A program made the translations under genes and the position numbers. A model generated the notes under the pieces. That model was not told the origin of the DNA, made no database searches, and worked only from the letters and a program-made list of their open reading frames with translations. DNA of 42,751 nucleotides from Pseudomonadota bacterium (lineage in GTDB: Bacteria > Pseudomonadota > Gammaproteobacteria > Competibacterales > Competibacteraceae): assembly GCA_018240295.1 (NCBI GenBank), contig JAFEGB010000125.1, forward strand, positions 1 through 42,751, in the 5' to 3' direction. Below are positions 34,242 to 39,500 of the stretch, in pieces; position 1 is the stretch's first letter, and every line of letters starts with the position of its first letter.

Positions 34242-34318
34242 GCCGGGCCTGACACAGCGAAGGACTGTGTCCCGACCCCGATAGCCGGCGCAGGAAGCGC
34301 GCAATACCGAGATTGGAC

Positions 34319-35398
34319 ATGTCCTGGTCGCTTTCCTCCGCCCATACGGATTTCCCTGCCTTCGCACCGGCATGGGATGCCCTGAACCGACGGCTGTTCA
34401 ACGCGCACCCGTTGCTCGACAGCGCATTCATCGCGCCGCTGGTCGAACTGTACGGTCCGGACACGCTGCGCCTCGCCCGCGAGACCGTCGACGGCCAGCT
34501 GCGCTCGGCCGCGCTGATCCGGCCGCTGGCCCCCGGTGCCTGGCGCGTGTTCGCGCTCGGCCCGATCCAGATGACTCCGGCGCTGATGGCCCCCGAGGCC
34601 GACTGGGACGAACTGCTGCGCAGCCTCCCCGGCATGGCGCTGCTGCTGAACGTCAACCTGCAGGATCCGCAGTACTCGCATCTCGCCCCCTGCCCGCCGG
34701 TGCGCCGCGCCTTCGATCACGCCTGCACCATCGGCATCGCACTGGAGGGCGATTTCGACCGCTACTGGCAGGGCCGCTCCCGCCACCTGCGCCAGAACCT
34801 CGGCCGCTACCAGCGCCGGTTGCGCGAGGACGGCATGGCCGTCGAATGGCGCCAGTACGCCGAGCCGGACGCGATCGTCGCGGCGGTCGATCGCTACAGC
34901 GTGCTGGAAAGCGCCGGCTGGAAAGGCCGCAACGGCACGGCGCTGCATCCGGACAACCTGCAGGGCGAGTTCTTCCGGCGCGTGATGCAGCGCTTCGCGC
35001 ACCGTGCCAGCGCCAGGGTCTGGGAGCTCTGGATCGACGGGCAGCTCGCCGCTTCCCGGCTGGCGATCGGCACGCCCGACATGCTGGTCATGCTGAAGAC
35101 CACGTATGACGAGCAACTCGCCCGCTACGCACCGGGCATGCTGCTGCTGCGCCGGGTCATCGAGGAGGAATTCACGGCCGCACGGCACCGGCGCATCGAG
35201 TTCTATACCAACGCCACGCCGGCGCAGCACGCCTGGGCGACCGACAGCCGCTGGATCCGTCACTTCGAGGTCTACCGCAACCGCCTGTCGGCGAGCGTCA
35301 TCGACGGCGTGCGCCTGAGCCGCGCCCATCCGCGCGCGCTGCTCGGCGGCACGGCGGCCGTGGCCGCGCTGGCGGCGTTTTCGGCACTGCTCAACTGA
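34319..35398 (+). CDS. GNAT-type acyltransferase, BioF2/CelD-like
   Basis: A 359-residue protein whose middle and C-terminal parts fit the acetyltransferase domain found in CelD/BioF2-like and peptidoglycan-bridge (FemAB-like) proteins: [25 protein letters not shown] (residues ~147-171), then [17 protein letters not shown] and [26 protein letters not shown], the acyl-CoA binding and catalytic side. A terminal hydrophobic helix ([19 protein letters not shown]) may touch the membrane. ATG at 34319 is preferred; a TTG two codons upstream is possible. The substrate is unknown; polysaccharide or peptide acylation is typical of the group. Confidence 0.78.
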
Positions 35399-35486: not shown

Positions 35487-36872
35487 ATGAGCCAGACCAA
35501 TCAGCAGTGGGGCGGACGCTTCACCGAATCCACCGACGCCTTCGTGCAGGCCTTCACCGCCTCGGTGCAGTTCGACCAGCGCATGTACCGCCAGGACATC
35601 GCCGGCTCGATCGCGCACGCGACCATGCTCGCCGAGGCCGGCGTGCTGAACGAGGCCGACCGCGCGGCGATCGTCGCCGGACTGGAAGCCATCCGCGCCG
35701 AGATCGAGCGCGGCGAGTTCGAATGGTCGATCGCGCTCGAAGATGTGCACATGAACGTCGAGGCGCGCCTGACCGAGCGCATCGGCCTCGCCGGCAAGCG
35801 CCTGCACACCGGCCGCTCGCGCAACGATCAGGTCGCCACCGACATCCGCCTGTACCTGCGCGACGCCATCGACGCGATCCTCGCCGAACTCACGCGCCTG
35901 CAGCACGGGCTGGTCGAACTCGCCGAGCGCGAGGCCGACACCATCATGCCCGGCTTCACGCACCTGCAGGTCGCGCAGCCGGTCAGCTTCGGCCACCACC
36001 TGCTTGCGTGGTTCGAACAGCTCAAGCGCGACAGCGGCCGTTACCGCGACTGCCGCGCACGCCTGAACGAATGCCCGCTCGGCGCCGCGGCACTCGCCGG
36101 CACCACCTATCCGATCGACCGCCACCGCACCGCCAGCCTGCTCGGCTTCGCCGGACCGACCGAGAACTCGCTCGATTCGGTCAGCGACCGCGACTTCGCG
36201 ATCGAATTCTGCTCGGCCTCGGCGCTGCTGATGACCCACCTGTCGCGCTTCAGCGAGGAACTGGTGCTGTGGGCGAGCGCGCAGTTCGGCTTCGTCGACA
36301 TTCCGGATCGCTTCTGCACCGGCAGCTCGATCATGCCGCAGAAGAAGAACCCCGACGTGCCGGAACTCGTGCGCGGCAAGAGCGGCCGCGTGCATGGCCA
36401 TCTGGTCGGCCTGCTGACGCTGATGAAGGGTCAGCCGCTCGCGTACAACAAGGACAACCAGGAGGACAAGGAGCCGCTGTTCGACACCGTCGACACCGTG
36501 CTCGGCTCGCTGCGCGCCTTCGCCGACATGGTGCCGGCACTCAGGGCCCGCCCCGAGCGCATGCGCGCCGCCGCGCTGCAGGGCTTCGCGACCGCCACCG
36601 ACCTCGCCGATTACCTCGTGCGCAAGGGCGTGCCGTTTCGCGACGCGCACGAGATCGTCGGCAAGGCCGTGCGCCTCGGCGTCGACACCGGCCGCGACCT
36701 CTCGCAGATGCGCCTCGAAGAACTGCGTGCCTTCAGCGACGCGATCGGCGCCGACGTGTTCGACAGCCTGACCCTCGAAGGCTCGCTCGCCGCCCGCAAT
36801 CACTTCGGCGGCACGGCGCCGGCGCAGGTGCGGGCGGCGGTGCAGCGGGCAAGGAAGTGGCTGGCAGAATAA
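35487..36872 (+). CDS. argH: Argininosuccinate lyase
   Basis: A 461-residue cytoplasmic enzyme splitting argininosuccinate to arginine and fumarate, the last step of arginine synthesis. It opens [17 protein letters not shown] and contains [29 protein letters not shown], the superfamily signature [12 protein letters not shown] from residue 279, and the C-terminal [14 protein letters not shown]. Length and motifs are complete. No other arg genes are near. It is followed 27 bp later by an ATPase gene of different base composition. Confidence 0.97.
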
Positions 36873-36899
36873 GCGGCTGATACGACGCGGAGGACGGCG

Positions 36900-37967
36900 A
36901 TGCGACATCTGGACAGCCTGACCATCGGCGCCTTCCGCGGTCTGCGCGACGTGAAGCTGGAAGGACTCGGCAGCGTCAACGTGCTGGTCGGGGACAACAA
37001 TTCCGGCAAGACCTCGGTGCTGGAGGCGCTGGCGCTGTTCGCACGGCCTTTCGATGACAAAACCTGGCTGGCCAGCGCAAGCCTGCGCGAAATTGGCGGC
37101 CCCGGCTTCCTTTTGTCCGATGCCGTGAACTGGTTTTTTCCGCATTCTGCAGAGCGAGATGAACACTCGCCTGTACGCCTGTCCGGATTCGCCAGCGGAA
37201 AAAAAGAAGCATCCCGCGTCGAAGCCTCCATCCGCCTGGTCAACGCGACCGATCCGGATGTGGCAGGACTGGTAATGCCGAGACGATACGTCGATGTGAG
37301 CCGGTTTCTCGATGAAAACAATGCCGAGAATGCGACGCTTGGTTTCTGGGGCAGCAACTGGTCAGTGGACCGGGGCGACCCGGAACCCAAGATGCTCCCG
37401 CTCCGTTTGTTATCTTCAGTCGCCCACCGGCTCACGGTATTTCAGACAGTCGAAATCTCCAGTGTCTTGCAGAAAAACGACAAAAAGCCAGTCCTGGATG
37501 CATTACAGCTATTTGACCAGGACATCATTGATTTTCTGCTGCTGACGGATGGTGATGGAAAGAATTCACGCCCCTACCTGCGACACCGACGACTTGGCCC
37601 GAAATCGCCGGCACCGCTGAGCATTTTTGGTGATGGCTTACGGCGAGCCTTTTCTATTGCGTTGTCGTTGCATTCGGCACGCCATGGTTTATTGCTGCTT
37701 GACGAGATTGAAACCGCCATACATCCAACCGCATTGACCACGTTCTTTGGCTGGCTGATCAAAGTCAGCCGACAAAGCAAAATTCAGCTTTTCTGCACCA
37801 CCCACAGCCTCGAAGCCGTCGACGCCCTGATGGCTGCCGAAACCGATCATCCGGGCGACATCGTCGTGCATCGACTGGAACACACTGACAACGGCACCGT
37901 CGCCACCCGCATTCGCGGGGAGCTGCTGCGCGAAATGCGCTACGACTTTGGCATGGATGTGCGCTGA
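36900..37967 (+). CDS. AAA/ABC-type ATPase of a two-gene ATPase-TOPRIM module (OLD-like)
   Basis: A 355-residue soluble ATPase of the AAA_21/SMC-like type. Walker A is GDNNSGKT (31-38), a signature-like FGDGLRR is at 243-249, Walker B LLLLDEIE at 264-271 with catalytic Glu269, and the switch His in CTTHS at 299-303. This is the head of OLD-family ATPases, but the TOPRIM nuclease is in the next gene, whose start overlaps this stop (TGATG). Base composition falls well below the flanks from about 37.1 kb, a sign of transfer. By analogy with PARIS (AriA-AriB) it may sense phage infection and control the TOPRIM protein. It is not the same families as known AriA by eye. Confidence 0.82.
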   Translation: MRHLDSLTIGAFRGLRDVKLEGLGSVNVLVGDNNSGKTSVLEALALFARPFDDKTWLASASLREIGGPGFLLSDAVNWFFPHSAERDEHSPVRLSGFASGKKEASRVEASIRLVNATDPDVAGLVMPRRYVDVSRFLDENNAENATLGFWGSNWSVDRGDPEPKMLPLRLLSSVAHRLTVFQTVEISSVLQKNDKKPVLDALQLFDQDIIDFLLLTDGDGKNSRPYLRHRRLGPKSPAPLSIFGDGLRRAFSIALSLHSARHGLLLLDEIETAIHPTALTTFFGWLIKVSRQSKIQLFCTTHSLEAVDALMAAETDHPGDIVVHRLEHTDNGTVATRIRGELLREMRYDFGMDVR

Positions 37968-38740
37968 TGCAATACGGCCTGCTGATCGTCGAGGGGCAAC
38001 ACGATGCGGCCGTCATTGCCAAACTTCTATCCGACTTCAACCTGAAAACCATTCAGAATGAAAAAAAGCTTGCTTCCTACTGGCGTCCCCTGTACGCAAA
38101 CCTGAAATTCCCGCAGGGCGGCGATCTGCTGAAACGCATGGATGTACCGATATTTGTCGAAAACAACACGCATTCGATCGCGATCAGGACTGCCGACAGC
38201 GACACGAACATTGCTTCCGCCCTCGAAGCCACACTGTCAGGACTCGGCAGTAAACAGGATCAATTGCAGGCCATCGGCATCGTCTGCGATGCGGATCAGC
38301 AAACCGCGAGTGCGCGCATGTCGAAACTGTGCGCAGCACTGGCTGGCCGCAATCTCACTTTCGCGGCCAGCACACCCGGCGTCGTCCATGCCGGTCCACC
38401 GCGCACTGGCATCATGGTCTTTCCTGATAATCTCGGCCCCGGCACGCTGGAAACGCTGCTGGAAGATTGCGCCGCCACACACTATCCGCAACTGCAGGTA
38501 CTGGCCTGCAATTACATGACGGATGGCGCTGGTCACCTCGACGAATCCGAACGCCGCAATCTGGAAAAAGGCGCCAACCGGCAGAAAGCCACGATTGCGG
38601 TGATCGGCGCATTGCTGCAGCCGGGTGCATCGATCGCTGTCACGCTGCGCCAGGATCGCTGGCTGACAGGCAGCGCGCTCGCGCAGCCGCGCATCGCTGC
38701 ACTGCGCACATTCCTGAAAGATCTGCTCGACCTGCCGTAA
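37967..38740 (+). CDS. TOPRIM-like protein (DUF3226-type), partner of the ATPase
   Basis: A 257-residue protein. Residues 1-165 fit a TOPRIM fold: LLIVEGQHD with Glu9 and Asp13, then IGIVCDADQ with Asp108 and Asp110 as the DxD metal site, and FPDNLGPGTLETLLEDC at 152-168, a pattern seen in DUF3226 proteins. The C-terminal ~90 residues form a helical region. All acidic residues needed for metal-dependent nuclease activity are present, so it may cut nucleic acid. The ATG at 37967 overlaps the ATPase stop by one base, showing strict coupling. AT content is again higher than in neighbours. Fold assignment is by motif only. Confidence 0.75.
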   Translation: MQYGLLIVEGQHDAAVIAKLLSDFNLKTIQNEKKLASYWRPLYANLKFPQGGDLLKRMDVPIFVENNTHSIAIRTADSDTNIASALEATLSGLGSKQDQLQAIGIVCDADQQTASARMSKLCAALAGRNLTFAASTPGVVHAGPPRTGIMVFPDNLGPGTLETLLEDCAATHYPQLQVLACNYMTDGAGHLDESERRNLEKGANRQKATIAVIGALLQPGASIAVTLRQDRWLTGSALAQPRIAALRTFLKDLLDLP

Positions 38741-38825
38741 GCGTTTCACGGCCAACCCTGTCCCCGGAAACTTCACGGGCGCCGCCCTCCCGGACAGCGC
38801 CCGCGTCGTTCACGGCAGCTCCCGC

Positions 38826-39500
38826 TCAGTCGCCGATCAGCACGATGTGCAGCCGGATCGGGCCGTGTGCGCCCATCTGCAGCTTCTGCTCGATGTCGGC
38901 CGAGCGGGACGGGCCGGTGATCCAGTTGACGACGCGCGGCATCCAGCCCTCGCCGCGCTCGCTGCGCAGCATCGCCCAGGCGTCCTCGTAGGGGCCGACG
39001 ATGCGCGCGGCATCGAGCACGACGATGTGCGCATCGGGCAGGAAGTTCAGCGTCGTCGGGCTCTGCGGGCCGGCGAGCAGCATCAGCGTGCCGGTCTCGG
39101 CGATGCCGGCGAAGGCCGGTGCGACGGTGGCGCGGTCGCCGTTGCGGGCGTGGCGGGCTTCGGTGGCCACACCGGCGGCGGACCAGTCGAGGCCGGCGAT
39201 CGACGCATCCGGCGCGACGATGGCCTCGGCGGCGAAGCCGATGTCGGCCAGATAGCGCGCGACCTCGGCCGGCACGGCGGCGCGCTCCGTGACGCGCGCG
39301 ACCGTTGCCGATGCCTCCTGCGCCATCTGCACGAACAGCTCGACCTGGCCGGCGTGCGGCAGCTGCGCGCGCGCCGGGATCAGGTTCGGCCGGTGCTCGC
39401 GCAGCCGCGTCTGACAGAGCTCCAGCGCCGTGCCCGCCAGCGGGCCGCTGCGCTTGAGGCCCTTGCGGATGTTGCCGAGGATCGCCTCACGCCCGCTCAT
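38826..39500 (-). CDS. lutC: LutC-type lactate utilization protein (LUD domain)
   Basis: A 224-residue cytoplasmic protein opening MSGREAILGNIRKGLKR, with the LUD-domain run GIAETGTLML, LNFLPDAHIVVLDAARIVG and the C-terminal WITGPSRSADIEQKLQMGAHGP. It is the third subunit of the LutABC complex that oxidises L-lactate to pyruvate. Its ATG overlaps the lutB stop (ATGA). It converges with the ATPase-TOPRIM pair, 85 bp apart. Confidence 0.93.
   Translation of the reverse strand: MSGREAILGNIRKGLKRSGPLAGTALELCQTRLREHRPNLIPARAQLPHAGQVELFVQMAQEASATVARVTERAAVPAEVARYLADIGFAAEAIVAPDASIAGLDWSAAGVATEARHARNGDRATVAPAFAGIAETGTLMLLAGPQSPTTLNFLPDAHIVVLDAARIVGPYEDAWAMLRSERGEGWMPRVVNWITGPSRSADIEQKLQMGAHGPIRLHIVLIGD

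Follow-up and report, generated by a model that had tools for sequence, protein, structure and literature searches.

A divergent ATPase-TOPRIM (DUF3226) gene pair of the candidate family PDC-M38 in a Competibacteraceae genome, a probable mobile immune module

The contig JAFEGB010000125.1 of a Competibacteraceae genome (assembly GCA_018240295.1; 42,751 bp, the whole stretch of DNA that was analysed and hereafter the window) encodes, between argH and lutC, an OLD-type ABC ATPase (gene A) and a separate DUF3226 TOPRIM protein (gene B). The two genes belong to the candidate family PDC-M38 and probably make up a mobile immune module, of a split OLD type in which the ATPase A would gate the nuclease B; as judged from the sequences, its role would be anti-phage defence.

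Both open reading frames are intact and have one base (37967) in common, with the coordinates and the overlap that an earlier note on this DNA had given (Table 1); the TGATG overlap suggests that A and B are translationally coupled. Gene A starts 27 nt after the stop codon of argH, and read-through from argH into the predicted pair is likely, since a scan of positions 36500-39000 found no sigma-70-like promoter. The GC content of the pair is 57.7%, compared with 69.9% in the 3-kb flanks, in agreement with the earlier description of a pair markedly richer in A/T than its flanks of about 70% GC, and the pair coincides with the lowest-GC 1841-base windows across the 42.7-kb contig; the GC content at third codon positions (GC3) is 0.65-0.67 in A and B, and 0.90-0.93 in argH, lutB and lutA.

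Table 1. Features of the ATPase-DUF3226 locus (positions are those of the window)
Feature	Position	Strand	Basis or conservation
GGAGG Shine-Dalgarno-like site, 6 nt 5' of gene A	36889..36893	+	sequence
Gene A: OLD/AAA_21-type ABC ATPase, 355 aa (PDC-M38A)	36900..37967	+	Pfam, PADLOC, AF2 model
Walker A of A, GDNNSGKT, residues 31-38	36990..37013	+	G31, N33, G36, K37 invariant in 51 sequences
Walker B of A, LLLLDEIE, residues 264-271	37689..37712	+	D268, E269 invariant in 51 sequences
Switch His302 of A	37803..37805	+	invariant in 51 sequences
C-terminal tail of A, DVR (family consensus VE[VIM]R)	37956..37964	+	terminal Arg355 invariant in 51 sequences
TGATG, stop of A (TGA 37965-37967) and start of B (ATG 37967-37969)	37965..37969	+	sequence
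Gene B: predicted DUF3226 TOPRIM nuclease, 257 aa (PDC-M38B-like)	37967..38740	+	Pfam, PADLOC, AF2 model
TOPRIM motif 1 of B, Glu9 and Asp13 (metal A / metal B ligands)	37991..38005	+	invariant in 54 sequences; E400/E404 of Bp OLD
TOPRIM DxD of B, Asp108 and Asp110	38288..38296	+	invariant in 54 sequences; D455/D457 of Bp OLD
Thr160-x-Glu162 of B, second metal site	38444..38452	+	T506/E508 of Bp OLD
Lys207 of B, catalytic lysine of the helical part	38585..38587	+	invariant in 54 sequences; K562 of Bp OLD

The product of gene A matches Pfam AAA_21 (1.5e-24) and also AAA_15, and it matches the PADLOC model PDC-M38A over its full length (5.2e-64, residues 1-355). The AlphaFold2 (AF2) model of A, with a pLDDT of 82.5, has the fold of an ABC head of the SMC/Rad50 type; its best fold matches include PtuA, GajA and retron ATPases. 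In an alignment of 51 sequences, Q296 and S303 are invariant in addition to the switch histidine and the Walker residues of Table 1; the Walker A, Walker B and switch residues that the earlier note had reported as kept are thus conserved, the key ones without exception in these relatives, and the same holds for its Glu9, Asp108 and Asp110 of B across 54 relatives.

Unexpectedly, the last residue of A (R355) was found to be invariant as well. Ninety-five of 100 ATPases end in arginine, mostly as VEVR, IEVR or VEMR, and this arginine is kept at the protein level, since all six arginine codons are used among the relatives. Selection for a Shine-Dalgarno site as the cause of the EVR tail was considered and rejected on the same codon usage, and a Shine-Dalgarno-like string is present in just 32 of 79 tails. 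The tail has a pLDDT of about 51 in the model of A, and such low confidence in a monomer model would fit a contact that is formed only inside a complex.

The product of gene B matches Pfam DUF3226 (PF11536; 4.7e-22, 79.2 bits against a curated cut-off of 27) and PADLOC PDC-M38B (6.8e-10), with five more models below 1e-4, the best stretches being partial. The residues of B were matched, by position within the motifs, to the class 2 OLD nuclease of Burkholderia pseudomallei (Bp OLD), in which the corresponding residues build a two-metal site and the catalytic lysine (PMC6755086). Glu162 is more than 90% conserved in the 54 sequences, and invariant in a set of 20. B has every residue that matches the class 2 OLD active site, i.e. 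a complete predicted two-metal nuclease site. The AF2 model of B (pLDDT 80.9, pTM 0.78) has a TOPRIM fold; its best match, at Z 15.0 over 217 residues, is PH0156 of Pyrococcus horikoshii (PDB 2p62). Class 2 OLD proteins come next with their TOPRIM regions (Z 7.9-9.0), before retron Eco2 (Z 7.6) and AriB of PARIS (Z 5.9-6.1); taken alone, the AriB match is weak, since unrelated folds also score in the range below Z 8. An OLD-type ATPase with a separate DUF3226 TOPRIM protein, as first read from the sequence, is borne out by Pfam, PADLOC and fold. The TOPRIM domain of B also contains an insertion of about 45 residues (window 38045-38182; residues about 27-72) of low model confidence, which is missing from canonical relatives.

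A Walker-A ATPase is encoded immediately upstream of the DUF3226 gene in 79 of 84 homologous loci, with the two genes mostly overlapping or a few bases apart. At least 545 relatives came up when genome contigs were scanned with the canonical alignment, and the best 80 of them are from Pseudomonadota, Cyanobacteria, Bacteroidota, Chloroflexota, Myxococcota and others; the pair of the window is a divergent long branch, with mostly 17-29% identity to its relatives. In 73 of 77 loci, the pair has a lower GC content than the DNA on either side (Wilcoxon p = 1.8e-13), the median difference being 6.7 points. The position of the pair directly downstream of genes on the same strand (51 same, 24 opposite, 15 within 60 bp) is not clearly above ordinary gene order. 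At one locus (L095; G572:C199:27221-29510), two ATPase-DUF3226 pairs that are mutually diverged lie in tandem, and in several genomes of Methylococcaceae (L116-L120) the pair appears in a common place inside a formylmethanofuran-related (Amidohydro_3 / FTR) operon.

With the proteins of the window as queries, no matches were found among plasmids, phages and viral contigs; with canonical relatives as queries, copies were found on plasmids and viral contigs, and none among phage records. A 4693-bp ColRNAI plasmid of Escherichia coli (NZ_CP060973.1; L182) carries the pair as its main cargo, with one further annotated CDS of 210 bp, and this 4693-bp plasmid with the pair is present in eight of 5426 complete E. 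coli genomes. A plasmid of the same type and of equal length was also observed in Klebsiella. Further copies are located on small plasmids of Citrobacter and Acinetobacter, and the pair adjoins phage tail or baseplate genes in a plasmid-borne prophage of Plesiomonas and on two IMG/VR contigs. These comparisons support that the pair is horizontally mobile and coupled as one unit.

A conserved housekeeping locus of the genus was the outcome that the earlier note had set against its own proposal. The same-genus genome lacks a match to gene B, 58 relatives contain only two weak, distant ones, and PF11536 is present in eight of 369 genomes of the class and in 15 of 398 genomes of the phylum; vertical inheritance as a housekeeping locus is rejected on this sporadic distribution and on the AT-rich composition of the pair relative to its hosts. 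A related explanation, that the pair acts in DNA repair or chromosome maintenance with a Rad50/SMC-like head and a TOPRIM nuclease, draws on the SMC/Rad50 heads as the nearest folds of the ATPase, on the many housekeeping neighbours, and on archaeal Cran1, an OLD-family ATPase whose role lies in the cell cycle instead of defence (PMC12796447). It is mostly refuted, and we consider it very unlikely: the pair is absent from the congener and from nearly all of the family, it is carried by plasmids and prophages, its composition departs from that of the host, and this genome contains two distantly related copies.

The second of these copies is located on another contig of the same genome (G000:C311; L051: 2041-3813, - strand), where it follows purH at a distance of 67 bp and immediately precedes purD. 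In the congener (G001), just 12 bp separate purH from purD, with no insert, so that for the second pair an occupied site can be set against a clean empty one. At least three more genomes of the family (G008, G030, G026) have a pair in this slot, which is empty in most of the genomes where it is readable, and purH-purD may represent a recurrent landing site for the pair. On a contig of Thiotrichaceae (L099), a pair is likewise located after purH. In the tree, the branches of the two pairs from this genome lie far apart, and the pairs were therefore probably acquired separately.

For the pair of the window, the earlier note had described a clean two-gene insertion between argH and lutC, which the relatives do not bear out. 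The distance from argH to lutC is 48 kb in one relative (G007) and 186 kb in the congener; lutABC is conserved in the relatives with lutC not beside argH, and argH of the congener is followed by a GGDEF-like gene and a gene for a WYL-type regulator (both named from the translated sequence). No empty argH-lutC site is readable, because the two genes are not neighbours in the relatives, and on gene order the argH/lutC junction of the window is a variable spot rather than a demonstrated clean insertion. On the other side of argH, a GNAT-type acetyltransferase gene (window 34313-35398) is located between a YscW-like gene and argH; it looks like an insertion, since the alignment with the congener passes from the YscW-like gene straight to argH.

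PDC candidates were nominated through 'guilt by embedding' in defence loci (PMC12988326); neither DUF3226 nor PDC-M38 was mentioned in the literature searched. The genes that flank the homologous pairs were scanned against PADLOC (138 ORFs of up to 900 aa, plus nine of ten larger neighbours). Of the 138 ORFs, about five gave a match at 1e-15 and most are housekeeping genes; among the nine larger neighbours, HmaB is encoded directly downstream of the pair in two loci, a ZorD/DpdE-like helicase directly beside the pair in one locus, and restriction-modification enzymes, type IIG among them, directly beside it in three loci. By raw counts, most loci thus hold the pair as a lone insertion, and a minority have it within known defence loci, so that the expected clustering in defence islands holds for some pairs and does not extend to most of the flanking genes. 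At the two HmaB loci (L156:2010-4901 and L175:6688-9477), where the overlap with HmaB is 4 bases in one case, the pair may be a module embedded in Hma.

The small plasmids and the lone insertions among housekeeping genes also bear on another explanation, namely a selfish or plasmid-maintenance module of the toxin-antitoxin type, in which A would hold B back until the pair is lost, whereupon B would cut host nucleic acid, without a role against phages. The pair as the main cargo of small plasmids would suit such a module, and AriA of PARIS is deposited in PDB entries as 'AriA antitoxin'. The HmaB, ZorD and type IIG restriction neighbours and the prophage cargo slots suit defence better, however, and most of the related ATPase-TOPRIM systems of known function are anti-phage; we therefore regard a pure toxin-antitoxin role as unlikely, and the two explanations are not mutually exclusive.

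For the immune module that is preferred here, the most likely mechanism is a nuclease that is held by the ATPase and released by a signal, because the pair has the same two parts as PARIS and Gabija, and a full two-metal site. In PARIS, the TOPRIM nuclease AriB cuts tRNA once AriA has sensed an anti-restriction protein and switched it on; in Gabija, a TOPRIM that cuts DNA is kept in check by the ATPase domain. By analogy, A and B would be stably bound to each other, with B inactive; a signal from the phage, or an altered ATP or DNA state, would change the assembly of the ATPase, and this would free or activate B, which would cut nucleic acid (DNA or tRNA) and abort the infection. The gating might depend on the invariant VExR tail at the C-terminus of A. 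The complex, the gating, the trigger, the substrate and the abortive outcome are all put forward as inferred steps. Against an immune role stand the mostly housekeeping flanks, the divergence of the pair of the window, the low-confidence insertion in B, and the precedent of Cran1. A farther-reaching proposal is rather doubtful but worth stating, namely that the DUF3226 pairs make up a widespread class in its own right within split OLD immunity, where the VExR tail would dock on and gate the TOPRIM protein, and where both trigger and substrate would be different from those of PARIS.

DUF3226 is still a 'domain of unknown function', though the structure of PH0156 dates from 2007. It is now tied to one near-obligate ATPase partner across many phyla, and a concrete mechanism is proposed for it, i.e. 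a two-metal TOPRIM nuclease gated by an OLD ATPase. What is added here are the complete assignment of the predicted active site, the near-obligate pairing, the evidence for mobility, the invariant C-terminal tail, and a natural E. coli plasmid; since this 4.7-kb plasmid carries the complete pair, the defence hypothesis is directly testable in laboratory E. coli. If the hypothesis is true, a common ATPase-TOPRIM module passes from candidate to system, and the tail motif offers a handle on the switching of split OLD systems.

Among known systems, PARIS (AriA-AriB; class 4 OLD) shares with the pair an ATPase and a TOPRIM protein in adjacent genes, as well as the TOPRIM fold (Z 6.1 to 8ux9). The likeness to PARIS that had first been suggested stands for the plan, a split ATPase-TOPRIM pair of the PARIS/OLD kind, and not for the system: the TOPRIM partner in PARIS is DUF4435 and here it is DUF3226, B has no match to DUF4435 or to any AriB model at E <= 1, and the VExR tail of A was absent from all seven DUF4435-linked ATPases examined. 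A matches AriA models (1.1e-24), but this match is unspecific and not readable as PARIS, because the best two of these models look like the generic AAA_21/AAA_15 Pfam profiles, being equally long and scoring almost alike. A true PARIS variant, which would respond to anti-restriction proteins such as Ocr with tRNA cleavage, would have the gene order seen here, and the profile of the B family gives a weak match to the N-terminus of AriB among PDB sequences (E 0.27, among chance hits) beside the AriB fold match; with PH0156 and the OLD TOPRIMs nearer in fold than AriB, and with the differences named above, such a variant is highly improbable.

AbiL (AbiLi-AbiLii) resembles the pair in its ATPase, with A matching AbiLi at 2.2e-37, and B has no match to any AbiLii model at E <= 1. 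No reverse transcriptase gene adjoins the pair, as it would in a retron with an OLD effector; the neighbours are argH and lutCBA. Class 2 OLD proteins and GajA of Gabija are similar in both parts (B, Z 9.0 to 6nk8; the ATPase, Z 17.8 to 8x5i), but here the two parts are separate proteins rather than a GajA fusion, with argH and lutC next door in place of a GajB helicase. With an ABC ATPase and a predicted TOPRIM nuclease in adjacent genes, the pair has the make-up expected of a split OLD (class 4-like) system. PH0156, the best fold match of B, was deposited as a hypothetical protein. The closest counterpart is PDC-M38, a two-gene phage defence candidate of PADLOC-DB (M38A/M38B), to which both proteins match in adjacent genes, in place of the undescribed subtype that the earlier note had considered. 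The ATPase of the window has PDLC04608 as its best model, compared with PDLC04611 for most of the relatives tested, and its B protein is longer by about 45 residues; on these matches, the pair is a divergent member of the catalogued candidate PDC-M38.
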